DNA of 64,000 bases, from assembly GCF_963675165.1 (NCBI RefSeq), contig NC_087382.1, forward strand, positions 3,387,963-3,451,962, in the 5' to 3' direction. Made by a program: the position numbers and the translations under genes. Source of the stretch: Halichondria panicea. Its lineage: Eukaryota; Porifera; Demospongiae; Suberitida; Halichondriidae. Positions 10,201 through 63,500 of the stretch are shown here, piece by piece; positions within the stretch are counted from its first letter, which is position 1; each line of letters starts with the position of its first letter. Under the pieces are notes generated by a model. The model did not search any database, was not told the origin of the DNA, and was given only the letters and a program-made list of their open reading frames with translations.

Positions 10201-13200
10201 TGACACCCTGTTGAGCACTGATTGGATAGTTAATAAAACAATACGATTGTTTACTGTTGTTTCTGTTGTAGTTTAATAGTTAACATTTACTATATACCGC
10301 CATCCTTTCTCTCTTACATAGTGTGGTATTTGCGATTATGAGATTCCACCGATGGACCGAGTGAGAGTTCCTTGTGACCATAACTTCTGTCAGGACTGCT
10401 GGACACTGTGAGGCCACTAACCCTAGCAACAGTAACCTAGCAACAGTAACCTAGCAACACAAGTGTAACTACAGATAGAGAAGGGTAGCTGGTGTACTGT
10501 ATTACTGATATCTTACTCTTCAGTTATCTAGAGAGTCAGATTAACGAAGGAGCTGGACGAGAGATTCGTTGCCCTGGTTACCAGTGCTACAAATTAGTCC
10601 CTGAGGTACAAACAAATAGAACTTTAATCATAATTATGGTTGTGTATTTTATTATAAGGCCCTTTTTGCTATTTTAATGCGCCGTAATAACGTCACGTGA
10701 CAGGAAGTAATCAGCGATATGGTGTCAGCTGACCAGCTACAGAAATACTCGGATCTAAACCTCAAACAATTTGTGGAATCGTCATCGGACATTCGCTGGT
10801 GTCCGTTCCCAGACTGTGGTTACGCCATATGCATCGGCGGGAAAGGAGATGTGGCCATACCCACTAATGGTGGTGTGGTCAGTGACGATGACTCCACCCC
10901 TGGACGCAACGTTGAGTGCGGTAGAGGTCATGGTTTTTGTTGGTGAGCGTATAAGTTCTTTTTTATTTTAGTGCTGTAATTAATGGGTGTGGTTACCCCT
11001 CCCATATACAGGCACTGTATGAAGGAGCCACACGAGCCGACATCATGTGAGCTCTGGGAACGATGGAAGGAGGTGGTCTCACGAATGACAAACGGTGAGA
11101 TAATTAAATCGAGCCTGTGTTATCGTGTCCACGATACCCTGCCGCTAATACCCAACACATGCACACACTGTCTTAGTTATCCACCACCCCACCACCCACA
11201 CACACCACACACACTAGATGACGAGGCAAAGAAGGTAGCCTCACAGGCACAAGCAGACGCTCGCTGGATCATAAGAAATACAAAGCCTTGCCCACACTGC
11301 AGGTACGTTGGAATAGAGTATAGAACAGTTAGAGTTAAAAGTTGCACTGTGCCTGTACGTTTCTCTGATTTCAATATTTCCTTATAGAGCTCCAATTCAG
11401 AAGAACGACGGATGCAATCACATGACTTGTAAACAGGTACGGGCTTAACATAATTATTGAAACGGCTGCACCTAGTTCATCTTTTGTTGCCTCTAGTGTC
11501 GCCATGATTTCTGCTGGGTGTGTCTTGATCCCTGGAGTCTTCATAACCACAGAACTGGGGGATACTTTACGTAAGTCGTACATTGCCAATTTACATTCAA
11601 AAACGCTCTTACAACTGATTGTCATCTATAGCTAGCTATGTGTAATAGCTTTGCTGTTCTCATAACTTTTTCAGTTCATATTTCACACAAATGTCACAAA
11701 TGATATGGGCAACAGATATCAATCTTGTCTATTGACCTAGCTCCCTCCTTTTCCTTCGTAGTGTGAATCGGTACCGTTGCAGTTTTAATTTATTCAACAA
11801 ATACTTTTTTAGAGGCCATTCCATGAAATTCAGTTGTCTATTGACCTCCCTTCCCATTGTAGCTGTAACCGGTTCACTGCTCAGGAGAAGGCCAACACGA
11901 CTGTGGAGAGGTCCAGAGGAGACATGGAGGCTGCCTATGTTAAGAAAGCTACAGAGGACCTTCAGTCGCACACTAAGAGATTCCAGCATTATTATGACAG
12001 ATACAACAATCATCTACACAGTCTGGATGTAAGTGGTGGAGCGTGAAAAATCTCTCGACAATTCTAGCAAGTTTAGTTTTGATTTTGCTAGCTAGTTTTG
12101 AGTGCCCATAACTTGACTTTGGAAGGTCCAATTTCATGTAAGATGCGTTCTGTAGCTCTAAGGGAGGTCTATTTATCAAAATGGGGTGTGTTTAAATCAT
12201 GTAGGCCAATTTTTTTTCTCCTTGTCAGATTGAAATGAAGTTGCTTCAAGAGTCGACTGGTAAGATGAGAGAACTGGAAAGACTCGGACTGGCTCTCGAC
12301 AAGAAAGGTACGATGTTTGTGCATGTGCATGTATTATAATAGCTGCTTAGTAATATTGAAATATGACCTTAATTTGGAAGTTCGTACTGTACATATAACA
12401 CTACATATTCTTTATAGTGGCTCGGGTCAAAGGTCAATCTGATGCCACCATTGGGGTGAACTCTCCTCTCACTCCACAAAAGAAAATCAGTGTTTTCACA
12501 ACTGGAGAAGCAAAAAACTTTCTCGACGATATTTTCCGAATTCTTCTGAGAGCGAGGAGAATCCTGTCAGCCTCATATTGCATTGGATACTTCATCCCTG
12601 ATACAGATAAGGAGGCCCTGGGGGCACATGAAGTATTGCAGGTGAGGGCAAGTGGCTCATCGTGACAGTAGATTGTGGTGTATGGAGAAATAGTAAAGTA
12701 TTTCTTTAAACGATCACAACTTAAATGTTTATCTACTTGCGTGAAGTATTCCATTTTGGTAGAATTTACTACGTGTACCATTGCATTGTCGAGTGTAGCA
12801 GCGATGTCTAACAGCCTACTGTAATAGCTAATTTGGTATGTCACTTTCCAACACACACTCACACACACACGCACACCCACACCCACACCCACTCACACTT
12901 ACACACCCACTCACACACCCACACACACTCACACTCACCCACACGCACACACACTCACACACCCCACACCCCTCAGGGCAAACTAGAGGAAGCAGTGGAG
13001 GTTGTCTCGGAGATGGTCAATAGACAATACCTCCAAACACCACGCTCTAAAATGAACGAAGCCGCTGGAAATGTCGACTACCTTTGCAGCGAATATCTCA
13101 CCGAAATGTCTGTGGTTGCGACAATCGCCGATCTGGCAGTAAAAGAAGCGGAAAAGCCTCCACCTCCGCGTGCCACCCCGCCCACTCCACGGGAGGACAG

Positions 13201-13372
13201 CCCGCCCCCTCGTATGGGGGTGATTCCCCTCGGCTTTGGACCAGACGTTCCCGACCAACCGGATGGAGAGAGGCGCTTCCGTTTGATTGGTCTATTGAAT
13301 CCCGATGGAACATTGCATATTTTACGAGTACCAGAAGAGGAGTTTCAATTTCTTAGGGCCCCAGCAGACTAA
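7234..13372 (+). CDS. ANKIB1: ANKIB1 homologue: ankyrin-repeat RBR E3 ubiquitin ligase
   Basis: Nineteen exons: 7234-7410, 8179-8496, 8562-8618, 8679-8804, 8978-9031, 9146-9217, 9633-9672, 9724-9863, 10322-10407, 10524-10605, 10704-10942, 11012-11094, 11218-11302, 11388-11436, 11497-11570, 11863-12028, 12229-12307, 12418-12641, 12977-13372. They sum to 2547 nt, 848 aa, in phase. Visible in order: MGGLES start (myristoylation-type, as the G2 start of vertebrate ANKIB1), ankyrin repeats (DTPLHLV, NTPLHLAAASGL), a UBA-like helix segment (GWSEELVREAWEND), RING1 (CGICDYEIPP, CDHNFCQDCW), IBR (RWCPFPDCGY, CGRGHGFCWHCMKEPHE) and Rcat (CPHCRAPIQKNDGCNHMTC, HDFCWVCLDPW). The catalytic Cys is expected in GCNHM by homology to other RBR ligases. 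RBR ligases pass ubiquitin through a Cys thioester. The C-terminal tail is Pro-rich and shorter than in vertebrates. From intron base about 11114 onward the 3' half is duplicated three more times downstream. Confidence 0.92.
7848..7880. repeat. Dispersed repeat, GGTGGTGGTTGGTACTA family (member 1)
   Basis: The motif CACTGGTCGGTGGTGGTGG followed by TTGGTACTAACC occurs here, at about 9915-9955 and at about 42031-42069, each followed by related sequence ending near AATAGCCACCA or similar. It is intronic here. Its class is unknown; a SINE-like family is possible. Confidence 0.6.
9915..10020. repeat. Dispersed repeat, GGTGGTGGTTGGTACTA family (member 2)
   Basis: The best-preserved copy in an ANKIB1 intron: CACTGGTCGGTGGTGG, then GGTACTAGCCACCTC, then a tail with GAATTGAGAGATTGAGG and AATAGCCACCAC. 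The copy near 42031 shares head and tail in the same order, so the unit is about 105-150 bp. Confidence 0.6.
10036..10210. mobile_element. MITE-like element in an ANKIB1 intron
   Basis: A 16-bp perfect terminal inverted repeat (CAGGGTGTCATACAGG at 10036-10051 and its complement at 10195-10210) flanks a 175-bp AT/C-rich interior with a run of C near 10068-10083. TTGAG directly flanks both ends (10031-10035 and 10211-10215) as a possible 5-bp target duplication. There is no coding capacity. Confidence 0.72.
12100..12184. repeat. Dispersed intronic repeat, CATAACTTGA...AGCTCTAAGGGAGGTCTAT family
   Basis: This intronic segment has the modules CATAACTTGACTTTGGAAGG, TCCAATTTCATGT and TGTAGCTCTAAGGGAGGTCT. 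Besides its segmental copies it recurs independently near 42771-42850 and 42950-43022, with weaker matches near 8880-8915 and 37265-37320. Confidence 0.65.
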
Positions 13373-14058: not shown

Positions 14059-17000
14059 ATGGGACAGGAACAGTCTGCTGAGTAAGTGATGGTCTTACAG
14101 CCTAACATTTTTATTGCTTTTAAACAGGAAACAGGCCAGTAATGCTGCTTGGAGTGGTGATGTAAGCAAAGTGAAGTCCCTGCTGGCACGTGGGGCCAAC
14201 CCCAACCACCCCGAGTACTATCTATTACACAATGCTTGTAGGAATGGTCACCTGGAGATAGTGAAGGCACTTGTTGAGGCTGGAGCAGACACTGGGAGAT
14301 GGGATAATCAGGGCATCTCTCCAGTTCATTGTGCAGCCAAGTGGGGTCATAAGAAGGTGTTAGTTTACTTGATCAGGGATTGCAAGTGCAGCGCTGGTGA
14401 GTAGTTTTCTATTCACTAGCAGTTGCTACATAACTCCCCCGGCCAACCCTATATATAGCAATTTTTCACATTGCAAATATTTTTGTGCATGGGACTTTAA
14501 TATCAGTTTAATTTGTAACGAATACGGAATACATGCATGGCTTGGGCTTCTTAATTTTGAATGAGTTGGTTATGTACACGAACTATGCGTTCGAGGCCTT
14601 GAGGGCCTGGCTTAGGGATGGACATTTAGTTCCTTACAAATGCACCAGTCCTGTAATATTTAAATATTAGTGATACCAACATTCACTTGTGTATAGATGC
14701 CAGGGACCGGTACAACAATACTCCACTCCACTATGCATGCTCTGGTGGTCACCTAGATGTGGTACAGTACTTGGTGGAGGAGGCCCACTGTGACATCAGT
14801 GAGTGTATCATAATTTTGTCTGTCCTTGTGTACAAATTTGTTGTTATGAACACTTTCAGATGTACGGAACAACAACAACCAGACTGTACTTCATGCAGCC
14901 TGCGGTAACGTCCTATTTATAAGTGATGAGTCGATAATTAGAGATTATAGTAACTACATAGCCCTAAAAGTACTTGTTCGTACAAACCAGAAATAAGAGT
15001 ATATGCATGTAATAGATATAGCATGGGAGACCGAGTGTTTTATGGAATATACAGGTACAAGCACAAGGGTGAAGCTCCGAGGGCGAGTTGCTTGTATATT
15101 TCAATAAAACACGAGGATTCTCATGCTATAATATTATGCAGGACGATCCTTACCAATGTGTAATAAAATAATAGAACACGGAAGAAACTGTATGACTTTT
15201 ATTACACGCTTGTAACCGATATAAAGTTATAAGATCCTTACAATACAGTGCATGTATTATACCAACTGCATTCCCGTTCAATACAATGCAGTCCGAATTT
15301 TACTTCGGCTTCAAAAAATCAAATCAGTCTGGTATGAAAAAGTTCCCCGTCAGCTTGCATTGGCGCAGTACTTGGTTGAGAAGGCTAACTGTGACATCAG
15401 TGAGTTTATTTAAATGTAATGTGTATACAATCTCTTGACCATTAACACATGTATGCAGATGCAACCGATAATGAAGGCAGGACACCCCTTGACATAGCTA
15501 AAGGGATAAGTGGTTACGAGGACATTGTTGACTACCTCAAGACTCGACAAGAATCATCTAGACAACCAGGCAAGTTATGAAAAAACATTTCACCGGCATC
15601 CTAAATAATTGACATAGCTATACATTATAAAGAGATTAGTGATGTGCATAATGTTATGTTTACACGACTCAACAACTGTTACTCATGGCAACCAGGCACG
15701 ACGATATGAACATATTTAACCGAAATTGTTATCACGAGGAATTCCTAGTAAATTGTTATCTGAGTACATTTTCCTCAATGAAGTAAAAAATGTCATGCCA
15801 GCAAAGGCTTCGCCATGCATACAGTAATTATAACTATACTTTACCATAGCTATATATAATTTATAGTCAGTCACATTTACTTCCTTGTACATTCATGCAG
15901 GAAAAGATGGTGTTGGGAGTCAAACAGCTGTTCCACTCACACAAGACGAGGCTGATGCTCTGCAGAAGCTTTTCGAGGGAGCACAAGTCACCATTGGTCA
16001 TCCCATTGTTGCTGGCACAACCACTCTGGAGGATGTTCAGCAGCTGCTTACTCAGAGAGGACTGGAGATTATGGCCGACGACCTCAGGACAAAACTCAGA
16101 CTAAGTAAGCTTAAAATTACTACTTTTAGTGCTTATCAAATGATCTCCGGTCAATCAGTTTAGCTTAAAGTAGTCACACGACCGTGATTTGTAATCTCCA
16201 CACTTAACTGATTACTTGCCGAATGGTTCTCGCTAAAATTTCAATGTTTGTTATTTTTCATATGATCAAAGTAACTTAATCTCTACTAATTTCTCCATAA
16301 TTATAGTTATGACTGAGCAACAAAGAAACCTCGAGATACTCAACAATCTAATGACAGATGAAGACACTATCGATGTTTGCTACCCAAGGCTATTTCTTGT
16401 TGGGCCGCCATCTGTTGGCAAGACGACCACACTCAATCGACTGCTGGGGGAGTTTGAGAACATTGACTCTGCTAGAGACAAAGCCAAGCTTAGAAGCACA
16501 CTGCTTGCTAACTGCAAACAAATACTTGCTTTCGTTAATGAAGACACAACAAAATGGTTGTCATCCAAAGATGTTGACGAAGAAACAAAGCTATTGTTTG
16601 GTTACTTGCGTGAATCTAAGTCTGAAACCACTCCTAACAAAGAGAGAAGCATCGCAACCTCAACCGATTCTCCTGTATTAATACGCATGCTAAGAACTCT
16701 GTTTAAATACACCACACAATTATTTTCTGAAGAAAACAGACCACCACTACACCAAGCCACAGCTGCTCAGCGTACGATGACAATGAGTCAACCAAAAAAC
16801 AAACTATTACCAATAAAATCAGAATTACAACAGCTAATAAAGAATGCGGATTATTCCAAAATGGCTGATTTCCTTGGCGATATTTTACTGAATATTCACG
16901 ACATCGGAGGTCAGCCAGGCTTCTTAGAAATGCTACCAGCCCTGAGCACTGGTCCGGCCATGTACCTAGTGTTCTTAGATCTCAGTAAGGAACTTGACAA

Positions 17001-20000
17001 GCTGTACAAAATACCTTTCAGTCGAGATGGTATGGAAATTATTCCCTTCAATTCTGTTCACACTACAGAAGCCACAATCTCTCAAATCCTCACCTCTATT
17101 GCCAGTGTCCATTGCATCTCAAGAGATCCCACTCCTCTTATTGATGTTGGCAGAGCTAGTGATGCTCTTAAAGAAAGAATTAAAACATTTAAACAAGTTA
17201 AACCGGTAGCAGCCTTGATAGGCACACACAAAGACAAGCTGACCGACCCCGAGAGACAAATCAGCGAGAAAAATGAGGCACTTACAAAAGTTCTCCAAAA
17301 ATTCCCTGAAATTATTATTTCTCCTGGATCAGAACAGCAGAATATTGAGCACAGCGAACCTCTATACGGAGCCCGTACACAATTAGATTCAAAATCTTGT
17401 TTCTTCTCAGTAGATAACCTCAATGGAACTGAAGTGTCTGACATCGGCCCCGTTCGTAATTTCTTAAGTCGAATAATTTTGTCTCGCTTCAAAAATGCTT
17501 CTCTTCCAATTCGACCGAAATGGCTCATTTTTGGGTTGCTTCTTCGAAAACAATTTCAAATAGCTACAATTGAAGATTGCTTTGAATTAGGAGAAATGCT
17601 AGAAATGCAGAAAGAAGAAGTAGAAGTGTGTCTCTGGTATCTTCACAACTGTGTTGGTACGATCCTCCGTTACACCAACGTACCTGGTGATGACGGTTGG
17701 CTCAAGGGTCATGTGATCTGCACCCTTCAAGCTATCTTTGATAGCATCAGCCAGTTTATTCTCCTTTCTATGCGAACGCTTCACTCAGGAGGTCCAGTTA
17801 CCGACTACGAGCAAGCCGAGTTGGTTAAGAAGGGACAGTTCTCGATCAAATCCATTGAGATGTGTTGCAGAAACGTGGAAATTTCTGAACTCATTCCCGC
17901 AAAGCATCTCATTAAGTTATTGGAGCATGTCAAACTTCTGTCCCCGATATCTCATAAGGATAAATCATCAGCGAAAGTTGTTCGCACTACCTACTTAATG
18001 CCGGCTGTTTTGGAATGTGCTTCACAAGAGGAGCTGGCGAACCCACCTCCACCAGACACCAACAACCCAGAACCACTCCACATTAGATTCAGCTTTGGTT
18101 ACGTACCAACAGGAGTCTTCTGTGGGCTCATCACTCGACTAGTTTCCCAAGGCCGCCATGGAATACTCGGATTGACGTGGAAGTTGGTGGAAGATGGTGT
18201 CAAGAGAAACTGCGTCTCTTTTCTGATTGCGAAATCAAATAAGATAACGTTAATATCTCATGAAAGGAGTTACGAAATACGAGTTACTCGAAATCACGCC
18301 CGTCTCTCCCTTCATGACCTTTGCACCTATGTTCTCTCGGTAGTTCTCTACACTCTCACGAACATGTACGAGCAGCTAGTCCCACAAGTGGCGTTCCAGT
18401 GCCCATGTCCTGGTCACAGCTCAAGCAGAGATCACAATTCCTTGTGTATTCTGACGGAAGATGTATGGATTCAGTTTCTGTGTGGCAGTAATCCCGTTAC
18501 CTTGAGGAAGGAGCAGACAGTTTGGCTTGGAAAGGTGTGTGTACAGTTAGCGTACGTAGAATTATGTTCATGTGTTCTACTTGCCTGTCTTACTATTTGC
18601 CGCTTGTTAGTCACATGCATCCCTTCTTTTCAACAGACCAAGAAGGTTGGTGAGGAAGCTGAACTAGAGGTGCTAAAGTTTACTGAGGAAGGTTTCTCCT
18701 TCCACTGGACTAAAGAGGGCTCCAGACGCCAGATCAAGACAACTGATGATCGGCCCAACACTCTGAGCTTCCCGAGTGTGAGAGAGGAGGACTTTGGTCA
18801 CTACCAGTGTGAGGTGAAGGATACAGCTGCTGGGAAAGTGCTCCTCACTCTCTACAGAGCTCTCTACAAAGAGGAGTCAAGTCAGTTAGCATAATTATAT
18901 TGAGAGTATAATTATATATGTGTGCCAATTGTCACGATACGCCACACTTACGTTCAATATTTTAACTGCTTCAGGTGAATTCTCTACTGAAAGGAATGAA
19001 GAGCCAAAAAGCAATGACACTAAATCTATTGTAAAGACGCCATCATCAGGTTTGATTGTTTCTACGAACTATTCTACAAACACTGTTATTCACTGATCAC
19101 TCGTATAGATGAGGGGTCCCTGTCACCAGAAAGGCTCCAACCCTCAGCAGCTCCAGTCCAGAGAGCAGAAACTCCATCAGCTGGTGGTGACAGTCAATTC
19201 CGTACTCAAAAAGGTATATTTCTTTATATACATGTAGCTGTGTATGATATTGTCACATCATCAATCAATGATTTATGCCCTCTACAGGACCACCCGCTAA
19301 TCGAGTCGCTCTCCAAGAACTAATGGGACGATACAATCTGACTAACGAGCAACTCAACCGTGAAATAAGTAACCCTAATTTTTCCTACCTGGCCATATAT
19401 TTCGATGATGTGGAAATTTATTCGAATGCCATGGGACTAGCTTCTGCTGAACAAGCCGATGTGAAGAGGTTATACCATAGCGAAGGTTCCCAAGCAGCCA
19501 TGTTAAAGTGTTTGAAAATCTGGAAACAACACAATTCTTCTCAAGCAAGTTACAGAGCTCTACTGGATATCATACTGAGATTGGGGAAAGGAGACACAGC
19601 TGATAAAATCTGTCAGCAATTGACCCAACGTAAGTACATGTATATCAGTGCCCCTCCCCTTTTCCTCGCCCCTCTAACAAGCAACTGAGCCAGTAGCTAT
19701 CCGACTCATGCATGTAACTGAACTCAACTCACACCAGAGAAGTATTTTATAATGAGTACATAGCTAGTAGGTTGTACATAATTATAGGATTGACAGTGCA
19801 ATTGTGTGTTTTCAATCATATTTCACCGCGTTTCGTCTGACTGACTAAGTAAGTAAGTATGTAAGTAAGTAAATAAGTAAGTAATATTCTTGGAAAGCAT
19901 TTCCTCCTTGTACAGACATGTTCAGAAGATTCTAGATACAGCCTCTAGTCGACTAGAACCCGGACCATGGGCGTTTTTCTCAGAATTGCGTCCGCTTCCA

Positions 20001-23237: not shown

Positions 23238-23659
23238 GTGTCCACGTACGTACGTATATATCCCCAGGCACTTCCTGTGAAGAAAATCAAAACGACAGAA
23301 GCTACTGATGGAGAGGCTGTGAGCAAAGGGAAGGGCAAGGAAAACAAGACGAACTGGGATGGTATCGAATTGGGACAAACTAAACACTGGAGGTATACAT
23401 TCCAACTATGTTATCAACTGATACTGGTCACATGTACTCAGACCATGGACCAGCTCATGGAATGTGAACGGAATCAGAGCGTGGATAAAGGTATCGTTTC
23501 CTCCGTCCTCAATAATTACAATTATTAACCAACCGCATTTTATACACTGTGTACAGAATGGTGGTCTGGAGTATATTGCACGGGAATACCCAGACATATT
23601 CTGTGTACAAGAAACCAAGTGTATTGAGAAAGAGCTTCCTATGGTAGGACAGCCACTGT

Positions 23660-27642: not shown

Positions 27643-30600
27643 ATGGGACAGGAACAGTCTGCTGAGTAAGTGATCGTCTTACAGCCTAACATTTTTATTG
27701 CTTTTAAACAGGAAACAGGCCGGGGAGTTATGGGTTGCTGCTTGGAATGGTGATGTCAGCAAAGTGAAGTCCCTGCTGGCACGTGGAGCCAACCCTAACC
27801 ACCCCGAGTACTATCCATTACACAACGCTTGTAGAAATGGTCACCTGGAGATAGTGAAGGCACTTGTTGAGGCTGGAGCAGACACTGAGAGATGGGATGG
27901 GGGCATCTCTCCAGTTCATTGTGCAGCCATATTTGGTCATAAGGAGGTGTTGGTTTACTTGATCAGGGATTGCAAGTGCAGCGCTGGTGAGTAGTTTTCC
28001 ATTCACTAGCAGTTGCTACATAACTCCCCCAGCCAACCCTATATATAGCAATTTTTCACATTGCAAATATTTTTGTGGGACTTTAATATCAGTTTAATTT
28101 GTAACGAATACGGAATACATGCATGGCTTGGGCTTCTTAATTTTGAATGAGTTGGTTATGTACACGAACTATGCGTTCGAGGCCTTGAGGGCCTGGCTTA
28201 GGGATGGACATTTAGTTCCTTACAAATGCACCAGTCCTGTAATATTTAAATATTAGTGATACCAACATTCACTTGTGTATAGATGCCAGGGACCGGTACA
28301 ACAATACTCCACTCCACTATGCATGCCATGATGGTCACCTAGATATGGTGCGGTGCTTGGTGGAGGAGGCCCACTGTAACATCAGTGAGTCTATCATTCT
28401 GTCTCCGTGTTATACCAATACATGTGTTAACATGATTATATGTACGAATGAGGTGACTGTTATTTCAGATGCACTGAACAAGTACAACACTACTCCACTC
28501 CACGATGCATGCTATCGTGGTCACCTAGAATTGGTGGAGTACTTGGTGGAGGAGGCCCACTGTGACATCAGTGAGTGTATCATAATTTTGTCTGTCCTTG
28601 TGTACAAATTTGTTGTTATGAACACTTTCAGATGTACGGAACAACAACAACCAGACTGTACTTCATAGAGCCTGCATTTTCTTGCTATTTAAAGGTGAGT
28701 CGAAGTAATTAGAGATTATAGTAACTACATAGCCCTAAAAGTACTTGTTTGTAACAAACCAGAAATAAGAGTATATGCATGTAATAGATATAGCATGGGA
28801 GACCGAGTGTTTTATGGAATATACATGTACAAGCACAAGGGTGAAGCTCCGAGGGCGAGTTGCTTGTATATTTCAATAAAACACGAGAATTCTCATGCTA
28901 TAATATTATGCAGGACGACCCCTTACCAAAACGTGTAATAAGAACACGGAAGGAACTGTATGACTTTTATTACATCCTTGTAACCTATATAAAATTATAA
29001 GATCCTTACAATACAGTGCATGTATTATTATAACCAACTGCATTCCCGTTCAATATTGTAACTTTAGGTATGGCATGGATGCCTTCCCGTAAGCTTGCAG
29101 TGGTGAAGTACTTGGTTGAGAAGGCTAACTGTGACATCAGTGAGTTTATTTAAATGTAATGTGTATACAATGACCATTAACATGCACATGCAGATGCAAC
29201 TGATAAGCGAGGCAGGACACCCCTTGACCTAGCTATAAAGAGTGATTACAAGGACATTGTTAACTACCTCAAGACTCGACAAGAATCATCTAGAAAACCA
29301 GGCAAGTTATGAAAACATTTCACCGGCATCCTATATAATTGGCATAGCTATACATTATAAAGAGATTAGTGATGTGCATAATGTTATGTTTACACGACTC
29401 AACAACTGTTACTCATGGCAACCAGGCACGACGTTATGAACATATTTAACTGAAATTGTTATCACGAGGAATTCCTAGTAAATTGTTATCTGAGTACATT
29501 TTCCTCAATGAAGTAAAAAATGTCATGCCAGCAAAGGCTTCGCCATGCATACAGTAATTATAACTATACTTTACCATAGCTATATATAATTTTATAGTCA
29601 GTCACATTTACTTCCTTGTACATTCATGCAGGAAAAGATGGTGTTGGGAGTCAAACAGCTGTTCCACTCACACAAGACGAGGCTGATGCTCTGCAGAAGC
29701 TTCTCGAGGGAGCACAAGTCACCATTGGTCATCCCATTGTTGCTGGCACAACCACTCTGGAGGATGTTCAGCAGCTGCTTACTCAGAGAGGACTGGAGAT
29801 TATGGCCGACGACCTCAGGACAAAACTCAGACTAAGTAAGCTTAAAATTACTATTTTTAGTGCTTATCACATGATCTCCGGTCAATCAGTTTAGCTTAAA
29901 GTAGTCACACGACCGTGATTTGTAATCTCCACACTTAACTGATTACTTGCCGAATGATTCTCGCTAAAATTTCAATGTTTGTTATTTTTCATATGATCAA
30001 AGTAACTTAATCTCTACTAATTTCTCCATAATTATAGTTATGACTGAGCAACAAAGAAACCTCGAGATACTCAACAATCTAATGACAGATGAAGACACTA
30101 TCGATATTAGCTACCCAAGGCTATTTCTTGTTGGGCCGCCATCTGTTGGCAAGACGACCACACTCAATCGACTGCTGGGGGAGTTTGAGAACATTGACTC
30201 TGCTGGAGACAAAGCCAAGCTTAGAAGCACACTGCTTGCTAACTGCAAACAAATACTTGCCTTCGTTAATGAAAACACAGCAAAATGGTTGTCATCCAAA
30301 GATGTTGACGAAGAAACAAAGCTCTTGTTTGGCTACTTACGTGAATCTAAGTCTGAAACCACTCCTAACAAAGAGATAAGCATCGCAACCTCAACCGATT
30401 CTCCTGTATTAATACGCAAGCAAAGAACTCGATCTAAAAATACCACAAAAGTGTTTCCTAAAGAAAGCAGATCACCACTACACCAAGCCACAGCTGCTCA
30501 GCGTACGACAATGAGTCATCCAAGAAGCAAACTATTACCAATAAAATCAGAATTACAACAGCTAATAAAAAATGCGGATTATTCCAAAATGGCCGATTTC

Positions 30601-33445
30601 CTTGGCGATATTTTACTGAACATTCACGACATCGGAGGTCAGCCAGGCTTCTTGGAAATGCTACCAGCCCTGAGCACTGGTCCGGCCATGTATCTAGTGT
30701 TCTTAGATCTCAGTAAGGAACTTGACAAGCTGTACAAAATACCTTTCAGTCGAGATGGTATGGAAATTATTCCCTTCAATTCTGTTCACACTACAGAAGC
30801 CACAATCTCTCAAATCCTCACCTCTATTGCCAGTGTCCATTGCATCTCAAGAGATCCCACTCCTCTTATTAATGTTGGCAGAGCTAGTGATGCTCTTAAA
30901 GAAAGAATAACAACTTTTAAACAAGTTAAACCGGTAGCAGCCTTGATAGGCACACACAAAGACAAGCTGATCGACCCCGAGAGACAAATCAGCGAGAAAA
31001 ATGAGGCACTTAAAAAAGTTATCAATAAATTCCCCGAAATTATTATTTCTCCAGAATCAAAACAGCAGAATATTGAGCACAGCGAACCTATAGACGGAGC
31101 CCGTACACAATCATGTTCAAAATCTTGTTTCTTCTCAGTAGATAACCTCAATGGAACTGAAGTGTCTGACATCGGACCCGTTCGTAATTTCTTAAGTCGA
31201 ATAATTTTATCTCGCTTCAAAAATGCTTCTCTTCCAATTCAACCGAAATGGCTCATTTTTGGGTTGCTTCTTCGAAAACAATTTCAAATAGCTACAATTG
31301 AAGATTGCTTTGAATTAGGAGAAATGCTAGAAATGCAGAAAGAAGAAGTAAAAGTGTGTCTCTGGTATCTTCACAACTGTGTTGGTACGATCCTCCATTA
31401 CACCAACGTACCTGGTGATGACGGTTGGCTCAAGGGTCATGTGATCTGCACTCTTCAAGCTATCTTTGATAGTATCAGCCAGTTTATTCTCCTTTCTATG
31501 CGAACGCTTCACTCAGGAGGTCCAGTTACCAACCACGAGCAAGCCGAGTTGGTTAAGAAGGGACAGTTCTCGATCAAATCCATTGAGATGTGTTGCAGAA
31601 ACGTGGAAATGTCTGAACTTATTCCCGCAAAGCATCTCATTAAGTTATTGGAGCACGTCAAACTTCTGTCCCCGATATCTCATAAGGATGAATCATCAGC
31701 GGAAGGTGTTCGCATTACCTACTTAATGCCAGCTGTTTTGGAATGTGCTTCACAAGAGGAGCTGGCGAACCCACCTCCACCAGACACCAACAACCCAGAA
31801 CCACTCCACATCACATTCAGCTTTGGTTACGTACCAACAGGAGTCTTCTGTGGGCTCATTACTCGACTAGTTTCCCAAGGCCCCCATAAAATCCTCGGAT
31901 TTAAGTGGAAGTTGGTGGAAGATGGTGTCAAGAGAAACTGTGTCTCTTTCTATGTAGATGGTATTCACAAGGTGACTCTGCTCTCGCACGAAAAGAGCTA
32001 CGAAATTCGAGTTTCCCGTGAGGATCCAGAATCTTCTCTGCACGACCTTTGCGCTCATGCACTCTCTGTCGTTCTGTATTTCCTCAAAACCTTGTATGAG
32101 AATTTGGTTCCATTAATCGCATTCCAGTGTCCCTGTTCTAATCACAAAGCCGAACGAGACGTCACTAATTTATGTACTATTTCCGATGGTTCAAAAGTTC
32201 GATTTCTTTGTAACGATTCTATGAAGCTCGTTAAATTAAAACCGGAACAACGGATCTGGCTTGGAAAGGTAAGTATTTTTGTAACCATTAATTGTATTAA
32301 TGATGCAATTAATTCGCTACAGACCAAGAAGGTTGGTGAGGAAGCTGAACTAGAGGTGCTAAAGTTTGCTGAGGATGGCTTTTCCTTCCACTGGACCAAA
32401 GAGGGCTCCAGACGTCAGATAAAGACAACTGATGATCGGCCCAACACTCTGAGCTTCCCGAGTGTGAGAGAGGAGGACTTTGGTCACTACCAGTGTGAGG
32501 TGAAGGATGCAGCTGCTGGGAAAGTGCTCCTCACTCTCTACACAGCTCTCTACAAAGAGGAGACAAGTCAGTTAGCATTGAGTTATGCCACACTTACGTT
32601 CAATCTTTTTACATCACATTATACTTTAGCCGAATTCTCTACTGAAAGGAATGAAGAGCCAAGATGCAGTGGCACTAACTCTATTGTAAAGACGCCATCA
32701 TCAGGTTTGATTGTTTCAACTATTCTACAAACACTGTTGTTCACTGATCACTCCTTTAGATGAGGGGTCTCTGTCATCAGAAAGGCTCCAATATTCAGCA
32801 GATCCAGTCCAGAGAGTTGGAACTCCATCAGCTGGTGAAGACAATCAAGTCTGTACTACAATAATATTAGGTATATTTCCTGAAGTAGCTAGTTATGTAT
32901 TTATGTATGGTTATTTAATGTTTGCCCCTCTACAGGACCACCTGCTAATCAAATCGCTCTCCAAGAACTAATGAAGCGATACAAACTGACTGACGAGCAA
33001 CTCAACCGTGAAATAGTGGACTCCGATACTCCCGTAATGGCCTTAAATTTTGATGATGTGGAAATGTATTCAACTGCAATGGGGCTAGCTATTGCTAAAC
33101 AAGCTGATGTGAAAGAATCATGTGGAAATCAAGCAGCCATGATGAAGTGCCTGCAAGTCTGGAAAGAACGTGATCCTTTTCAAGCAACTTACAGAGCTCT
33201 ACTGGATATCGCACTGAGATTGGGGAAAGGAGAAACAGCTGATAAAATCTGTCGGCAATTGACCCAACGTAAGTACATGTGTATCAGTGCCCCTCCCCCT
33301 TTTCCTCCCCCCTCTAGAAAGCAACGAGTATAGCTATCCAAACAGTTTGACTGCAATCACACCTTCTATATAATTAATTTTTACAAAACACCTGCATACA
33401 TAATTATTTCCACTTTTCCTGATTGCAGATCGTACACTGGACTGA
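27643..33445 (+). CDS. Roco gene B: ankyrin-Roc-COR-Ig-death domain protein
   Basis: Fourteen exons: 27643-27665, 27712-27986, 28283-28384, 28469-28570, 28632-28694, 29068-29139, 29194-29301, 29632-29835, 30038-32268, 32323-32566, 32630-32704, 32760-32870, 32936-33268, 33429-33445. They total 3960 nt, 1319 aa, in phase with no stop. The order is as in Roco A, but with one additional ankyrin exon (28469-28570, KYNTTPLHDACYRGHLE). P-loop GPPSVGKTT, DIGGQ and THKD are intact. From about 31950 to the end of that exon (32268) the protein diverges sharply from A and C (YVDGIHKVTLLSHEKS versus LIAKSNKITLISHERS), and the following intron is unrelated; the Ig exon is again nearly identical. The Ig-like motif is FHWTKEG then EEDFGHYQCEV. 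The death domain lies in exon 32936-33268. The start (MGQEQSAEKQAGELW) matches the other copies, and the intron after 29301 has a GC donor. Confidence 0.88.
28789..28902. repeat. 114-bp fold-back repeat in a Roco B intron
   Basis: Counterpart of the 15017-15130 element, with the same TATAGCATGGGAGA and TCTCATGCTATA ends. Confidence 0.75.
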
Positions 33446-48320: not shown

Positions 48321-51300
48321 ATGGGACAGGAACAGTCTGCTGAGTAAGTGATGGTCTTACAGCCTAACATTTTTATTGCTTTTAAACAGGAAACAGGCCG
48401 GGGAGTTATGGGTTGCTGCTGGGGATGGTGATGTAAGCAAAGTGAAGTCCCTGCTGGCACGTGGGGCCAACCCTAACCACCCCGAGTACTATCCATTACA
48501 CTACGCTTGTAGGAATGGTCACCTGGAGATAGTGAAGGCAGTTGTTAAGGCTGGAGCAGACCCTGAGAGAAGGGATGTTTGGGGCTGGTCTCCAGTTCAT
48601 TATGCAGCCTATTATGATCATAAGGAGGTGTTGGTTTACTTGATCAGGGATTGCAAGTGCAGCGCTGGTGAGTAGTTTTCCATTCACTAGCAGTTGCTAC
48701 ATAACTCCCCCGGCCAACCCTATATATAGCAAGTTTTCACATTGCAAATATTTTTGTGGGACTTTAATATCAGTTTAATTTGTAACGAATACGGAATACA
48801 TGCATGGCTTGGGCTTCTTAGTTTTGAATGAGTTGGTTATGTACACGAACTATGCGTTCGAAGCCTTGAGGGCCTGGCTTAGGGATGGACATTTAGTTCC
48901 TTACAAATGCACCAGTCCTGTAATATTTAAATATTAGTGATACCAACATTCACTTGTGTATAGATGCCAGGGACCAGCGCAACAATACTCCACTCCACAA
49001 AGCATGCTATTGGGATCACCTAGGTGTGGTGCAGTACTTGGTGGAGGAGGCCCACTGTGACATCAGTGAGTGTATCATAATTTTGTCTGTCCCTGTGTAC
49101 ACATTTGTTGTTATGAACACTTTCAGATGTACGGAACAACAACAACCAGACTGTACTTCATTTAGCCTGCAGTCGCGCCCTATATCTAACTGGTGAGTCG
49201 AAGTAATTAGAGATTATAGTAACTACATAGCCCTAAAAGTACTTGTTTGTAACAGACCAGAAATAAGAGTATATGCATGTAATAGATATAGCATGGGAGA
49301 CCGAGTGTTTTATGGAATATACAGGTACAAGCATAAGGGTGAAGCTCCGAGGGCGAGTTGCTTGTATATTTCAATGAAACACGAGGATTCTCATGCTATA
49401 ATATTATGCAGGACGACCCCTTACCAAAACGTGTAATAAGAACACGGAAGGAACTGTATGACTTTTATTACATCTTTGTAACCTTATAAGATCCTTACAA
49501 TATAGTACATGTATTATTATAACCAACTGCATTCCCGTTCAATATTGTAGGTTTTGGTATGCCTTCCCGTCAGCTTGCAGTAGTGCAGTACTTGGTTGAG
49601 AAGGCTAACTGTGACATCAGTGAGTTTATTTAAATGTAATGTGTATACAATCTCTTGACCATTAACATGCACATGCAGATGCAACTGATAAGCGAGGCTG
49701 GACACCCCTTGACACAGCTATAAAGAGTAGTTTTTTCAAGGACATTGTTGACTACCTCAAGACTCGACAAGAATCATCTAGACAATCAGGCAAGTTATGA
49801 AAACATTTCACCGGCATCCTAAATAATTGACACAGCTATACATTATAAAGAGATTAGTGATGTGCATAATGTTATGTTTACACGACTCAACAACTGTTAC
49901 TCATGGCAACCAGGCACGACGTTATGAACATATTTAACCGAAATTGTTATCACGAGGAATTCCTAGTAAATTGTTATCTGAGTACATTTTCCTCAATGAA
50001 GTAAAAAATGTCATGCCAGCAAAGGCTTCGCCATGCATACAGTAATTATAACTATACTTTACCATAGCTATATATAATTTTATAGTCAGTCATATTTACT
50101 TCCTTGTACATTCATGCAGGAAAAGATGGTGTTGGGAGTCAAACAGCTGTTCCACTCACACAAGACGAGGCTGATGCTCTGCAGAAGCTTCTCGAGGGAG
50201 CACAAGTCACCATTGGTCATCCCATTGTTGCTGGCACAACCACTCTGGAGGATGTTCAGCAGCTGCTTACTCAGAGAGGACTGGAGATTATGGCCGACGA
50301 CCTCAGGACAAAACTCAGACTAAGTAAGCTTAAAATTACTATTTTTAGTGCTTATCACATGATCTCCGGTCAATCAGTTTAGCTTAAAGTAGTCACACGA
50401 CCGTGATTTGTAATCTCCACACTTAACTGATTACTTGCCGAATGGTTCTCGCTAAAATTTCAATGTTTGTTATTTTTCATATGATCAAAGTAACTTAATC
50501 TCTACTAATTTCTCCATAATTATAGTTATGACTGAGCAACAAAGAAACCTCGAGATACTCAACAATCTAATGACAGATGAAGACACTATCGATGTTTGCT
50601 ACCCAAGGCTATTTCTTGTTGGGCTGCCATCTGTTGGCAAGACGACCACACTCAATCGACTGCTGGGGGAGTTTGAGAACATTGACTCTGCTGGAGACAA
50701 AGCCAAGCTTAGAAGCACACTGCTTGCTAACTGCAAACAAATACTTGCCTTCGTTAATGAAAACACAGCAAAATGGTTGTCATCCAAAGATGTTGACGAA
50801 GAAACAAAGCTGTTGTTTGGCTACTTGCGTGAATCTAAGTCTGAAACCACTCCTAACAAAAAGATAAGCATCGCAACCTCAACCGATTCTCCTGTATTAA
50901 TACCCAAGCAAAAAACTCGATCTAGACATCCCACAAAAGGGTTTCCGAAAGAAAGCAGATCACCACTACACCAAGCCACAGCTACTCAGCGTACAACAAT
51001 AAGTCAACCAAGAAGCAAACTACTACCAATAAAATCAAAATTACAACAGCTAATAAAGAATGCTGACTATTCCAAAATGGCCGATTTCCTTGGCGATATT
51101 TTACTGAACATTCACGACATCGGAGGTCAGCCAGGCTTTTTGGAAATGCTACCAGCCCTGAGCACTGGTCCGGCCATGTATCTAGTGTTCTTAGATCTCA
51201 GTAAGGAACTTGACAAGCTGTACAAAATACCTTTCAGTCGAGATGGTATGGAAATTATTCCCTTCAATTCTGTTCACACTACAGAAGCCACAATCTCTCA

Positions 51301-54034
51301 AATCCTCACCTCTATTGCCAGTGTCCATTGCATCTCAAGAGATCCCACTCCTCTTATTGATGTTGGCAGAGCTAGTGATGCTCTTAAAGAAAGAATTAAA
51401 ACATTTAAACAAGTTAAATCGGTAGCAGCCTTGATAGGCACACACAAAGACAAGCTGACCGACCCCGAGAGACAAATCAGCGAGAAAAATGAGGCACTTA
51501 CAAAAGTTATCAATAAATTCCCCGAAATTATTATTTCTCCAAGATCAAAACAGCAGAATATTGAGCACAGCGAACCTATAGACGGAGCCCATACACAATC
51601 AGGTTCAAAATCTTGTTTCTTCTCAGTAGATAACCTCAATGGAACTGAAGTGTCTGACATCGGCCCCGTTCGTAATTTCTTAAGTCGAATAATTTTGTCT
51701 CGCTTCAAAAATGCTTCTCTTCCGATTCGACCGAAATGGCTCATTTTTGGGTTGCTTCTTCGAAAACAATTTCAAATAGCTACAATTGAAGATTGCTTTG
51801 AATTAGGAGAAATGCTAGAAATGCAGAAAGAAGAAGTAAAAGTGTGTCTCTGGTATCTTCACAATTGTGTTGGTACGATCCTCCATTACACCAACGTACC
51901 TGGTGATGACGGTTGGCTCAAGGGTCACGTGATCTGCACTCTTCAAGCTATCTTTGATAGTATCAGCCAGTTTATTCTTCTTTCTATGGGAACGCTTCAC
52001 TCAGGAGGTCCAGTTACCGACTACGAGCAAGCCGAGTTGGTTAAGAAGGGACAGTTCTCGATCAAATCCATTGAGATGTGTTGCAGAAACGTGGAAATGT
52101 CTGAACTTATTCCCGCAAAGCATCTCATTAAGTTATTGGAGCACGTCAAACTTCTGTCCCCGATATCTCATAAGGATAAATCATCAGTGGAAGTTGTTCG
52201 CACTACCTACTTAATGCCGGCTGTTTTGGAATGTGCTTCACAAGAGGAGCTGGCGAACCCACCTCCATCAGACACCAATAACCCAGAACCACTCCACATC
52301 ACGTTCAGCTTTGGTTACGTACCAACAGGAGTCTTCTGTGGGCTCATCACTCGACTAGTTTCCCAAGGCCGCCATGGAATACTCGGATTGACGTGGGAGT
52401 TGGTGGAAGATGGTGTCAAGAGAAACTGCGTCTCTTTTCTGATTGCGAAATCAAATAAGATAACGTTAATATCGCATGAAAGAAGTTACGAAATACGAGT
52501 TACTCGAAATCACGCCCGTCTCTCCCTGCACGACCTTTGCACCTATGTTCTCTCGGTAGTTCTCTACACTCTCACGAGCATGTACGAGCAGCTAGTCCCA
52601 CAAGTGGCGTTCCAGTGCCCATGTCCTGGTCACAGCTCAAGCAGAGATCACAATTCCTTGTGTATTCTGACAGAAGATGTATGGATTCAGTTTCTGTGTG
52701 GCAGTAATCCCGTTACCTTGAGGAAGGAGCAGACAGTTTGGCTTGGAAAGGTGTGTGTACAGTTAGCGTACGTAGAATTATGTTCATGTGTTCTTGCATA
52801 ATGTTTCCATTCATTCTACAGACCAAGAAGGTTGGTGAGGAAACTAAACTAGAGGTGCTAAAGTTTTCTAAGGATAGTTTCTCCTTTCACTGGATTAAAG
52901 AGGGTCAGATCAAGACAACTGACGATCGGCCCAACACTCTGAGTTTCCCGAGTGTGAAAGAGGAGGACTTTGGTCACTACCAGTGTGAGGTGAAGGATGC
53001 AGCTGCTGGGAAAGTGCTCCTCACTGTCTACAGAGCTCTCTACAAAGAGAAGACAAGTCAGTTAACTGAGTATGATTAAGGATGTACTTACTTTTAACAT
53101 CACATTTACTTTAGATGAAATCTCTACTAAAAGGAATGAAGAGCCAAAAAGCTATGACACTACCAGCACATCTATTGTAAAGATGCCATCATCAGGTTTG
53201 ATTGTTTCTACGAACTATTCTACAAACACTGTTATTCACTGATCACTCCTATATAGATGAGGGGTCCCTGTCAGCAGAAAGGCTCAAACCCTCAGCAGAT
53301 CCAGTCCAGAGAGTAGGAACTCTATCAGCTGGTGAAGATAATCAAGTCTGTACTAGAATATTAGGTATATTTCCTGAAGTAGCTAGTTATGTATGTATGC
53401 ATGGTTTTAATGTCTGTCCCTCTACAGGATCACCTGCTAATCAAGTCGCTCTCCAAGAACTAATGAGGCGATACAATCTGACTGACGAGCAACTCAACCG
53501 TGAAATAGTGGACTCCGATACTCCCGTAATGGCCTTAAATTTTGATGATGTGGAAATGTATTCAACTGCAATGGGGCTAGCTATTGCTAAACAAGCTGAT
53601 GTGAAGAAGGTGTACCATTGCGAAGGAACTCAAGCAGCCATGATGAAGTGCCTGCAAGTTTGGAAAGAACGTGATCCTTTTCAAGCAACTTACAGAGCTC
53701 TACTGGATATTGCACTGAGTTTGGGGAAAGGAGACACAGCTGATAAAATCTGTCATCAATTGACCCAACGTAAGTACATGTATATCAGTGCCCCTCCCCA
53801 TTTTCCTTGCCCCTTTAACAAGCAACTGAGCCGGTAGCTATCCGACTCATGCATGTAACTGAAATCACACCAGAGAAGTATTTCATAATGAGTATACATA
53901 GGATTGACAGTCACAGTGCAATTGTGTGTGTTTTCAATTATTGCACAAATTATCTCAGCTAGTGCACTGTTGATATGACAACCTATAGTTGATATACATA
54001 TAATTATTATTGTACAGATCGTACACTGGACTGA
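48321..54034 (+). CDS. Roco gene C: ankyrin-Roc-COR-Ig-death domain protein
   Basis: Thirteen exons: 48321-48343, 48390-48667, 48964-49065, 49127-49192, 49551-49619, 49679-49789, 50120-50323, 50526-52750, 52822-53056, 53115-53195, 53257-53364, 53428-53769, 54018-54034. They total 3861 nt, 1286 aa, in phase. The same domain order is seen: MGQEQS start, ankyrin repeats, Roc with P-loop GLPSVGKTT (Pro to Leu, still GxxxxGKT), DIGGQ, THKD, COR-like region with FQCPCPGH, Ig-like exon (FHWIKEG, KEEDFGHYQCEV), death domain. The ankyrin exon reads RRDVWGWSPVHYAAYYDHKE where Roco A has GRWDNQGISPVHCAAKWGHK. The Ig exon lacks three residues (GSR) relative to A. The COR end matches A, not B. The intron after 49789 has a GC donor. 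A candidate AATAAA follows near 54165. Confidence 0.88.
49287..49400. repeat. 114-bp fold-back repeat in a Roco C intron
   Basis: Counterpart of 15017-15130; same ends and length. Confidence 0.75.
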
Positions 54035-60502: not shown

Positions 60503-63500
60503 ATGGGACAGGAACAGTCCAAAAGTATGGGACAGGAACAGTCTGCTGAGTAAGTGATCGTCTTACAGCCTAACATTTTTATTGTTGTTTTTTAACCAGG
60601 ACACAGTCCAAGGAGTTATGGGTTGCTGCTAGGGCTGGTGATGCAAGCAAAGTGCAGTCCCTGCTGGCACGTGGGGCCGACCCTAACCACCCCTGGTACT
60701 ATTATCCATTACGCAACGCTTGTGAGAATGGTCACCTGGAGATAGTGAAGGCACTTGTTGAGGCTGGAGCAGACACTGGGAGATGGGATCATCGGGGCAT
60801 GTCTCCAGTTCATTTTGCAGCCAAGTGGGGTCATAAGAAAGTGTTGGTTTACTTGATCAGGGATTGCAAGTGCAGCGCTGGTGAGTCGTTTTCCATTCAC
60901 TAGCAGTTGCTACATAACTCCCACGGCCAACCCTATATATATCAATTTTTCACATTGCAAATATTTTTGTGGGACTTTAATATCAGTTTAATTTGTAACG
61001 AATACGGAATACATGCATGGCTTGGGCTTCTTAATTTTGAATGAGTTGGTTATGTACACGAACTATGCGTTCGAGGCCTTGAGGGCCTGGCTTAGGGATG
61101 GACATTTAGTTCCTTACAAATGCACCAGTCCTGTAATATTTAAATATTAGTGATACCAACATTCACTTGTGTATAGATACCAGGGACCAGCACAACGATA
61201 CTCCACTCCACGATGCATGCTATTGGGGTCACCTAGATATGGTGCAGTACTTGGTGGAGGAGGCCCACTGTGACATCAGTGAGTGTACCATAATTTTATC
61301 TGTCCTTGTGTACAAATTTGTTTTTATGAACACTTTCAGATGTACGGAACAACAGCAACCAGACTGTACTTCATGCAGCCTGCTGTCTAATTGGTGGTGA
61401 GTCGAAGTAATTAGAGATTATAGTAACTACATAGCCCTAAAAGTACTTGTTTGTAACAAACCAGAAATAAGAGTATATGCATGTAATAGATATAGCATGG
61501 GAGACCGAGTGTTTTATGGAATATACATGTACAAGCACAAGGGTGAACCTCCGAGGGCGAGTTGCTTGTATATTTCAATAAAACACGAGGATTCTCCTGC
61601 TATAATATTATGCAGGATGACCCCTTACCAAAACGTGTAATAAGAACACGGAAGGAACTGTATGACTTTTATTACATCCTTGTAACCTATATAAAATTAT
61701 AAGATCCTTACAATACAGTGCATGTATTATTATAACCAACTGCATTCCCGTTTAATATTGTAACTTTAGGTAAGAGATGGACGTCCAATCAGCTTGCATT
61801 GGTGCAGTACTTGGTTGAGAAGGCTAACTGTGACATCAGTGAGTTTATTTAAATGTAATGTGTATACAATCTCTTGACCATTAACATGCACATGCAGATG
61901 CAACTGATAAGCGAGGCAGGACACCCCTTGACATAGCTAAAGGGAGGAGTGATTACGAGGACATTGTTGACTACCTCAAGACTCGACAAGAATCATCTAG
62001 ACAACCAGGCAAGTTATGAAAAAACATTTCACCGGCATCCTAAATAATTGGCATAGCTATACATTATAAAGAGATTAGTGGTGTGCATAATGTTATGTTT
62101 ACACGACTCAACAACTGTTACTCATGGCAACCAGGCACGACGTTATGAACATATTTAACCGAAATTGTTATCACGAGGAATTCCTAGTAAATTGTTATCT
62201 GAGTACATTTTCCTCAATGAAGTAAAAAAATGTCATGCCAGCAAAGGCTTCGCCATGCATACAGTAATTATAACTATACCATAGCTATATATTATTTATA
62301 GTCAGTCACATTTACTTCCTTGTACATTCAGGAAAAGATGGTATTGGGAGTCAAACAGCTGTTCCACTCACACAAGACGAGGCTGATGCTCTGCAGAAGC
62401 TTCTCGAGGGAGCACAAGTCACCATTGTTCATCCCATTGTTGCTGGCACAATCACTCTGGAGGATGTTCAGCAGCTGCTTACTCAGAGAGGACTGGAGAT
62501 TATGGCCGACGACCTCAGGACAAGACTCAGACTAAGTAAGCTTAAAATTACTATTTTTAGTGCTTATCACATGATCTCCAGTCAATCAGTTTAGCTTAAA
62601 GTAGTCACACGACCGTGATTTGTAATCTCCACACTTAACTGATTACTTGCCAAATGGTTCTCGCTAAAATTTCAATGTTTTGTTATTTTTCATATGATCA
62701 AAGTAACTTAATCTCTACTAATTTCTCCATAATTATAGTTATGACTGAGCAACAAAGAAACCTCGAGATACTCAACAATCTAATGACAGATGAAGACACT
62801 ATCGATGTTTGTTACCCAAGGCTATTTCTTGTTGGGCCGCCATCTGTTGGCAAGACGACCACACTCAATCGACTGCTGGGGGAGTTTGAGAACATTGACT
62901 CTGCTGGAGACAAAGCCAAGCTTAGAAGCACACTGCTTGCTAACTGCAAACAAATACTTGCCTTCGTTAATGAAAACACAGCAAAATGGTTGTCATCCAA
63001 AGATGTTGACGAAGAAACAAAGCTCTTGTTTGGCTACTTGCGTGAATCTAAGTCTGAAACCACTCCTAACAAAAAGAGAAGCATCGCAACCTCAACCGAT
63101 TCTCCTGTATTAATACCCAAGCAAAAAACTCGATCTAGACATCCCACAAAAGTGTTTCCGAAAGAAAGCAGATCACCACTACACCAAGCCACAGCTACTC
63201 AGCGTACAACAATGAGTCATCCAAGAAGCAAACTACTACCAATAAAATCAAAATTACAACAGCTAATAAAGAATGCTGACTATTCCAAAATGGCCGATTT
63301 CCTTGGCGATATTTTACTGAACATTCACGACATCGGAGGTCAGCCAGGCTTTTTGGAAATGCTACCAGCCCTGAGCACTGGTCCGGCCATGTATCTAGTG
63401 TTCTTAGATCTCAGTAAGGAACTTGACAAGCTGTACAAAATACCTTTCAGTCGAGATGGTATGGAAATTATTCCCTTCAATTCTGTTCACACTACAGAAG

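Follow-up and report, generated by a model that had tools for sequence, protein, structure and literature searches.

Why should the exons of a gene accumulate differences faster than the introns that lie between them? This question is raised by an array of ankyrin-repeat genes in the sponge Halichondria panicea, four copies of which (hereafter A, B, C, and D) lie in the 64,000-nucleotide stretch of contig NC_087382.1 analyzed here (positions 3,387,963 to 3,451,962, or G000:C6:3387963-3451962; hereafter the window, from whose first letter all positions without further mention are counted). An initial annotation had proposed, from a comparison of copies by eye, that the ankyrin exons of these genes evolve faster than their own introns, and the analysis reported below confirmed this observation, which proved stronger and wider than first noted. 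The reading that we consider probable is that these genes form a germline-encoded family with an ankyrin (ANK) - ROC-COR GTPase - Ig - Death organization, in which very strong diversifying selection acts on the ankyrin residues that contact the target, and which constitutes a recognition repertoire resembling that of NOD-like receptors (NLRs).

A search of the genome (131 Mb in 39 contigs) with exon 2 of copy A returned 32 matches, of which 21 fall within positions 3349278-3662216 of the contig that holds the window (C6), one lies on C5, and ten are short and weaker. The 21 matches correspond to 20 copies, one of them (c13) being split in two pieces, and these copies are tandem duplicates. Our core sample comprises 15 of the 20, with c13 and the divergent c01-c04 omitted, as was the copy on C5; the sample for replacement and silent differences in exon 3 comprises 13 copies (B and c16, which carry extra exon copies, being omitted), and that for the ROC-COR control comprises six array copies. 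For intron 4, exon 5, and intron 5, the 15-copy means were set aside, since c12 and c16 fail to align in that part. The reading frame of exon 2 is open in all 15 core copies, many scaffold residues are invariant, and differences in exon length between copies, in the array as in the second family described below, amount to whole codons. The features on which the comparison relies are the following:

14128..14396, forward strand: exon 2 of copy A, encoding some 2.5 ankyrin repeats whose putative contact codons are hypervariable (Pfam, site model, and AlphaFold2 [AF2])
14397..14696, forward strand: intron 2 of copy A, conserved among 15 copies
14697..14798, forward strand: exon 3 of copy A, a single ankyrin repeat that varies at the same positions
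27712..27986, forward strand: exon 2 of copy B
48390..48667, forward strand: exon 2 of copy C (comparison copy)
48668..48963, forward strand: intron 2 of copy C
60600..60880, forward strand: exon 2 of copy D

Between copies A and C, the nucleotide alignment of exon 2 contains 30 substitutions in 269 positions and one 9-bp (three-codon) indel, against 4 in 296 and one indel in intron 2 (Fisher P = 5e-7), so that the excess and the intron count given initially both stand, the estimate of about two dozen exon substitutions having been too low. The counts in the other noncoding parts of the same pair are 0/46 (intron 1), 2/61 (intron 3), and 8/684 (upstream spacer), and exon 3 differs at 11 of 103 positions. 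The excess is milder between A and D, as had been suggested (25/269 in exon 2 against 4/296 in intron 2), and is visible even in the closest pair, A and c17, where exon 2 differs at 17/269 positions but introns and spacer together at 7/1087 (P = 7e-8). Over the 105 pairs formed by the 15 copies, the mean difference reaches 0.113 in exon 2, 0.094 in exon 3, and 0.105 in exon 4, to be compared with 0.027, 0.026 (median 0.010), and 0.037 in introns 1, 2, and 3, and in all but one of these pairs (104) replacement divergence is higher than that of the intron. The pattern thus extends beyond exon 2, exons 3 and 4 being about as divergent between introns that are all conserved. Inside the gene, individual codons rather than the whole exon account for the excess: in 20-base bins, divergence ranges from 0.000 to 0.053 in intron 2, peaks at 0.258 (14300) and 0.222 (14340) in exon 2 before dropping to 0.007 at 14360-14379, and takes values of 0.171 and 0.220 beside 0.007 in exon 3. 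Two high bins, at 0.299 and 0.183, are also found in the spacer before exon 1.

In the codon alignment of A and C, 28.0 of the 31 changes alter an amino acid and 3.0 are silent (replacement and silent substitutions per site, dN 0.146 and dS 0.052), in keeping with what had been seen by eye, and the amino acid changes quoted at the time (QGIS/WGWS and AAKWGHK/AAYYDHK) are present; for A and D, dN is 0.113 and dS 0.087. With Nei-Gojobori counting (NG86) over the 105 pairs, the proportions of replacement (pN) and silent (pS) differences in exon 2 are 0.126 and 0.073, pN being the larger in 97 pairs, and in exon 3 they are 0.106 and 0.040, pN being the larger in 68 of 78 pairs. As a control, columns 1-430 of the ROC-COR exon give a pN/pS ratio of 0.49, while exon 2 of these 15 pairs reaches 1.50. 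We then fitted site models M1a and M2a, coded in Python, on FastTree trees. M2a outperforms M1a with a ratio of replacement to silent rates (omega) of 9.95 for 15.6% of codons (twice the log-likelihood difference, 2dlnL, 164.4), and with an omega of 37.5 (2dlnL 368.1) on the intron tree; M2a is also favored in each half of exon 2 (2dlnL 35.6 for the 5' half and 119.3 for the 3' half). The selected alignment columns are 4, 7, 11, 49, 52, 74, 75, 77, 82, 85, and 86. Since the copies recombine, we also performed a tree-free check on disjoint closest pairs (n = 7), which yields a replacement divergence of 0.100, a silent divergence of 0.056, and an intron divergence of 0.0177 (replacement vs. silent, P = 0.004); with single-base codons only, the first two values become 0.065 and 0.035.

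Where in the protein do the selected codons lie? The fold is that of ankyrin repeats (Pfam Ank_4, 1.3e-20, 73.4 bits vs. a cut-off of 22.7), and the AF2 model of the ankyrin part of copy C, with a predicted local distance difference test score (pLDDT) of 94.6, has Foldseek matches to ankyrins; among the 50 matches listed, many are designed ankyrin repeat proteins (DARPins) or other designed ankyrins. In this model, all 11 selected residues of the array lie in first helices or turns, and none among the 28 second-helix residues (P = 0.015 by chance). In each repeat, it is the first helix and the turn that gather the replacement changes, which involve 11 to 14 exon 2 codons and the corresponding positions of exon 3; scaffold codons, the GTPase exon, and introns stay nearly identical among copies. 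Designed-ankyrin libraries offer a further point of comparison. Their randomized positions, 2, 3, 5, 13, 14, and 33 of the repeat, make 10 codons per family; diversity at these codons versus the rest is 0.736 versus 0.172 in the array (P = 4.8e-7) and 0.667 versus 0.130 in the second family (P = 2.6e-7). The proposal that changes cluster at positions of the type that contacts ligands in ankyrin repeats is supported.

A related family on another chromosome (C1) served as a replicate. There are 40 matches to its ankyrin exon, of which we analyzed the best 16, spread over approximately 1.1 Mb, and the exon is open in 16 of 16 copies. Differences amount to 0.000-0.032 in the windows (91-240) directly before the exon and to as much as 0.209 in exon windows, and replacement divergence exceeds intron divergence in all 120 pairs. 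M2a gives an omega of 16.2 (2dlnL 265.6), or 24.2 (2dlnL 391.7) on the intron tree, so that a ratio above 1 at ankyrin sites, which had been put forward as a test of the initial proposal, was found in both families. In disjoint closest pairs (n = 8), replacement, silent, and intron divergences are 0.083, 0.043, and 0.0168 (replacement vs. silent, P = 0.002); by NG86, silent divergence (0.043) thus exceeds that of the intron (0.017), and it is 0.022 with single-base codons only. Nucleotide diversity (pi) amounts to 0.012 at fourfold sites and 0.022 in the intron, as opposed to 0.48, 0.57, and 0.33 at positions 1, 2, and 3 of the variable codons. By fourfold sites, silent and intron rates therefore agree, which makes this family a cleaner case than the array. 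Moreover, the variable positions agree between the two families (rho 0.64, P = 5e-4 for repeat 3; rho 0.59, P = 0.002 for repeat 2).

Several results weigh against reading this pattern as diversifying selection on the contact residues of an NLR-like family. The comparison of A and B is reversed (dN 0.072 < dS 0.125). The upstream spacer of the array differs by 0.085 on average (median 0.035), with a pi of 0.074 in its last 300 bases, above the introns, and in the second family the repeat-rich DNA farther upstream of the exon differs by 0.09-0.21. The NG86 silent divergence of exon 2 is higher than that of the intron in both families (Fisher P = 1.5e-5 in the array and 2.3e-4 in the second family), and the depth of descent of exon and intron may hence differ, although part of this excess is a counting effect of codons hit more than once, as the single-base values of 0.035 and 0.022 indicate. 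Reticulation breaks the single-tree assumption of the site models, and at a large number of the variable codons the copies differ by two or three bases, such that multinucleotide mutation could inflate omega. Furthermore, 5 of the 20 library codons are weak (columns 53 and 72 in the array; 13, 78, and 92 in the second family), repeat position 10, which is outside the library list, is strongly variable, and the Roc, COR-B, and Death matches of copy A, detailed below, all lie under Pfam's curated cut-offs.

Some of these points also bear on gene conversion, which could act either by homogenizing introns and conserved codons while the exons escape, or by importing exons as blocks from divergent donors. 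Exchange of short stretches among copies is real: all four gametes occur in 151 of 351 exon 2 site pairs, linkage within exon 2 decays with distance (rho -0.121, permutation P = 0.019), and as a result the introns may be partly homogenized and are not a pure clock. This process would also fit the fourfold sites of array exon 2, whose diversity (0.049) is about twice that of intron 2 (0.026) and near that of intron 3 (0.044), as well as a spacer more divergent than the introns, and in the 3' half of B an imported block can be seen, where columns 431-800 of the GTPase exon differ from A by 75 silent and 116 replacement changes, the last of these columns running into the next intron. However, imported sequence would carry silent changes, as it does in the 3' half of B, whereas exon 2 has few; conserved stretches within exon 2 remain at the intron level (the bin at 14360-14379) a few bases from hot codons; when the variable codons are divided into four blocks, the 15 copies show 12, 13, 13, and 14 different haplotypes; and fourfold sites of the second family are no more diverse than its intron despite the extreme variability of codon positions 1 and 2. 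Wholesale import, which had been named at the outset as a finding that would overturn the initial proposal, is thus rejected as the main cause, and we regard gene conversion as an unlikely source of the pattern, while retaining it as a contributing process.

A targeted or local hypermutation of the hot codons, for instance by a mechanism like that of activation-induced deaminase (AID) or of diversity-generating retroelements (DGRs), would account for the tight focus of the variation, for the many differences that span two or three bases, and for a pi of 0.45-0.57 at positions 1 and 2 of hot codons, a codon set chosen after seeing the variation. Yet, the fourfold third bases of these codons differ in only 3 of 50 comparisons in the array and 1 of 67 in the second family, versus 179/3638 and 55/4534 elsewhere, and neighboring introns and codons are little changed. 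Silent third bases that are not elevated argue against local hypermutation, which we reject on these rates and hold to be very improbable. In the same way, most copies of the C1 family retain A as the third base of their hot codons (columns 54 and 80, 14 of 16 copies; column 48, 12 of 16), which makes adenine-directed mutation unlikely; the adenine-directed changes that sign a diversity-generating retroelement were not found, no search for a template or a reverse transcriptase having been made. Finally, decaying ankyrin exons might merely tolerate replacements next to introns that happen to be unusually constrained, and c13, whose match comes in two pieces, and stop codons in four ROC-COR matches of the array speak in favor of this. 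But the ankyrin exon is open in every sampled copy of both families with many invariant scaffold residues, its length changes by whole codons, and the omega of the fast class lies far above 1; relaxed constraint, rejected on these grounds, has in our opinion hardly any chance of being the explanation. Diversifying selection at contact residues accordingly remains the reading that we favor.

With regard to the genes that carry these exons, the remaining features of the four copies in the window are as follows:

14059..14081, forward strand: exon 1 of copy A, with an MGQEQSAE start and an open frame on joining to exons 2-3
14860..14909, forward strand: exon 4 of copy A, start of a further ankyrin repeat; donor uncertain, length of the 3' end varying among copies
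15354..15399, forward strand: exon 4b of copy A, remainder of the repeat begun in exon 4; open when joined, splicing predicted
15459..15569, forward strand: exon 5 of copy A, last ankyrin-like repeat, GC donor
15901..16104, forward strand: exon 6 of copy A, linker
16307..18534, forward strand: ROC-COR-like GTPase exon of copy A, conserved (the control exon above)
18637..18840, forward strand: Ig-like domain of copy A, residues 777-844 of the open reading frame (ORF) starting at 16309 (Pfam Ig_3 9.9e-6, below cut-off)
19275..19685, forward strand: Death-domain ORF of copy A (Pfam Death 6.3e-4, 20.3 bits vs. a cut-off of 22.6)
28283..28384, forward strand: exon 3 of copy B, first copy
28469..28570, forward strand: exon 3 of copy B, second copy (gained repeat)
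30040..32763, forward strand: ROC-COR-like and Ig ORF of copy B
50528..52801, forward strand: ROC-COR-like ORF of copy C
53202..53837, forward strand: Death-domain ORF of copy C (Pfam Death 0.0046, below cut-off)

Exon 2 of copy A is flanked by AG on its 5' side and GT on its 3' side, and exons 1-7 of this copy are predicted to be open throughout, whether exon 4 is spliced at 14909 or exons 4 and 4b are skipped. The MGQEQSAE start resembles an N-myristoylation signal; exon 1 itself has a median difference of 0 among the 15 copies and is yet variable in at least three of them. A long intron (14910-15353) interrupts one ankyrin repeat, and the end of the exon that precedes it varies in length among copies. 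Exon 3 is doubled in B (28283-28570), and c16 (L032) apparently has more copies of it, as judged by eye, which indicates that the number of ankyrin repeats changes by exon duplication. Around the array, an exon of an upstream gene recurs in each unit, at 12976-13372 and at the same place before B, C, and D (median difference 0.029); its labeling by eye as RBR/ankyrin E3-ligase-like is unconfirmed, the Pfam scan of the ORF being without a match. Another ORF, at 23464-23931, has an endonuclease/exonuclease/phosphatase match below cut-off (5.9e-4) and is perhaps derived from a retroelement.

Judging from domain searches, the apparent domain order of these genes is ANK - ROC-COR GTPase - Ig - Death. 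Of 10 aligned members, 9 match Pfam Roc at E<=1, the best being copy A (9.5e-4, 19.8 bits vs. a cut-off of 27), the sequence of this part contains a P-loop (GPPSVGKTT), and a profile search of the PDB retrieves the Roc domain of LRRK2 at E 0.013, level with another, archaeal protein. COR-A is matched in 3 of 10 members (best 0.0013) and COR-B in one, copy A (0.083, 13.1 bits vs. a cut-off of 27). AF2 predicts the structure of the 861-residue exon poorly (pLDDT 41), and the Foldseek matches of this model, the top five of which are Roco COR and LRRK1/2 (best 1.9e-6), were used as support only. In copy B, the Pfam model ig is above its cut-off (22.7 vs. 21.8 bits). The Death and Ig matches are indicative of an animal genome. 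The 24 families that the aligned members match at E<=1 include weak AAA-type matches (AAA_22 and AAA_16) but neither NACHT nor NB-ARC; a kinase match is absent from the ORFs scanned, the predicted gene start MGQEQS standing directly before the ankyrin exons; and TRADD-N did not turn up in the Pfam scans made, none of which searched for it by name. The genome holds 110 matches to the ROC-COR part (pieces, not genes), on C1, C3, C4, C8, and other contigs, many of them on C1. Within the GTPase exon of copy B (30040-32763), the 3' half (approximately codons 640-740) appears by eye to be a block of other descent.

How might such proteins work? The ankyrin surface of each copy would bind a different, fast-changing partner, the ROC-COR GTPase could serve as the switch, and the Death domain could pass the signal on, as the order of domains suggests by analogy with NLRs. 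The array might then be an NLR-like repertoire for the recognition of pathogens, symbionts, or non-self, with a ROCO module possibly standing in place of NACHT or NB-ARC. In animals, the large intracellular recognition repertoires known are mostly of the NACHT-LRR (leucine-rich repeat) type. Replacement-rich exons between conserved introns are familiar from the tandem paralogues of venom multigene families, which are secreted, whereas the variation described here is limited to a few contact codons of a protein in which no secretion signal was noted. The variable positions also largely coincide with the DARPin library positions, with the difference that they are natural, germline-encoded, and selected, and that position 10 varies too. 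DAPK1 also has ankyrin repeats. The DAPK1 group of ROCO proteins is restricted to animals and combines ROC-COR with a Death domain, without LRRs (PMC6337361); the sponge genes depart from it in that no kinase part was found in the ORFs scanned, an Ig-like part is added, and the family is largely expanded.

The closest precedents are the ANK-NLRs of fungi and the LRR-ROCOs of brown algae. Among fungal NLRs are some whose ANK, TPR, or WD repeats are highly conserved internally (Dyrka et al. 2014, PMC4986451), and their ankyrin repeats display a conserved scaffold with few hypervariable positions under positive selection, all but one on the concave surface (PMC4986451). Like the sponge genes, they have hypervariable ankyrin positions and a varying number of repeats, and the role proposed for them in that text is non-self recognition (PMC4986451); unlike them, the sponge genes have a ROC-COR-like switch instead of NACHT or NB-ARC and a Death-like effector, and, whereas the fungal variation is studied there between repeats and alleles, here it separates tandem paralogues and can be gauged internally against their introns. 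In brown algae, site models detected diversifying selection at four concave sites of LRR-ROC-COR proteins (Teng et al. 2024, PMC11378527; Zambounis et al. 2012 cited there). These candidate immune receptors likewise join a ROCO module to a repeat domain, with one repeat per exon and exon shuffling (PMC11378527), but their repeats are leucine-rich, no further domain combination is described there, and the organism is an alga, where we have ankyrin repeats and an animal. Another sponge, Amphimedon, has expanded Death/TRADD-N proteins, often with ankyrin repeats, viewed as immunity proteins (PMC8195603); this too is an expansion of the Death superfamily in a sponge, although Death is there N-terminal and accompanied by a TRADD-N domain. 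Among the papers listed in searches of open-licence PMC articles for ankyrin, NLR, or ROCO repertoires, none describes an ANK-ROCO repertoire in an animal, as judged by titles and the openings of abstracts.

Little is known of the molecules by which early animals recognize pathogens, symbionts, and their own tissues. Halichondria panicea, as an early-branching animal, may or may not, with little to choose between the two, use a large ANK - ROC-COR - Ig - Death repertoire as its equivalent of NLRs, possibly involved in the discrimination of self from non-self, with selection acting on the positions that are randomized in DARPins. If this is true, a ROCO-based repertoire whose ankyrin binding surfaces are natural would offer a solution parallel to the known repertoires, linked to an effector of the Death type and with contact codons that change about tenfold faster than the silent rate. 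Owing to its conserved introns and scaffold, the family is unusually favorable for codon-by-codon measurement of selection, and its variable codons directly indicate candidate binding residues.
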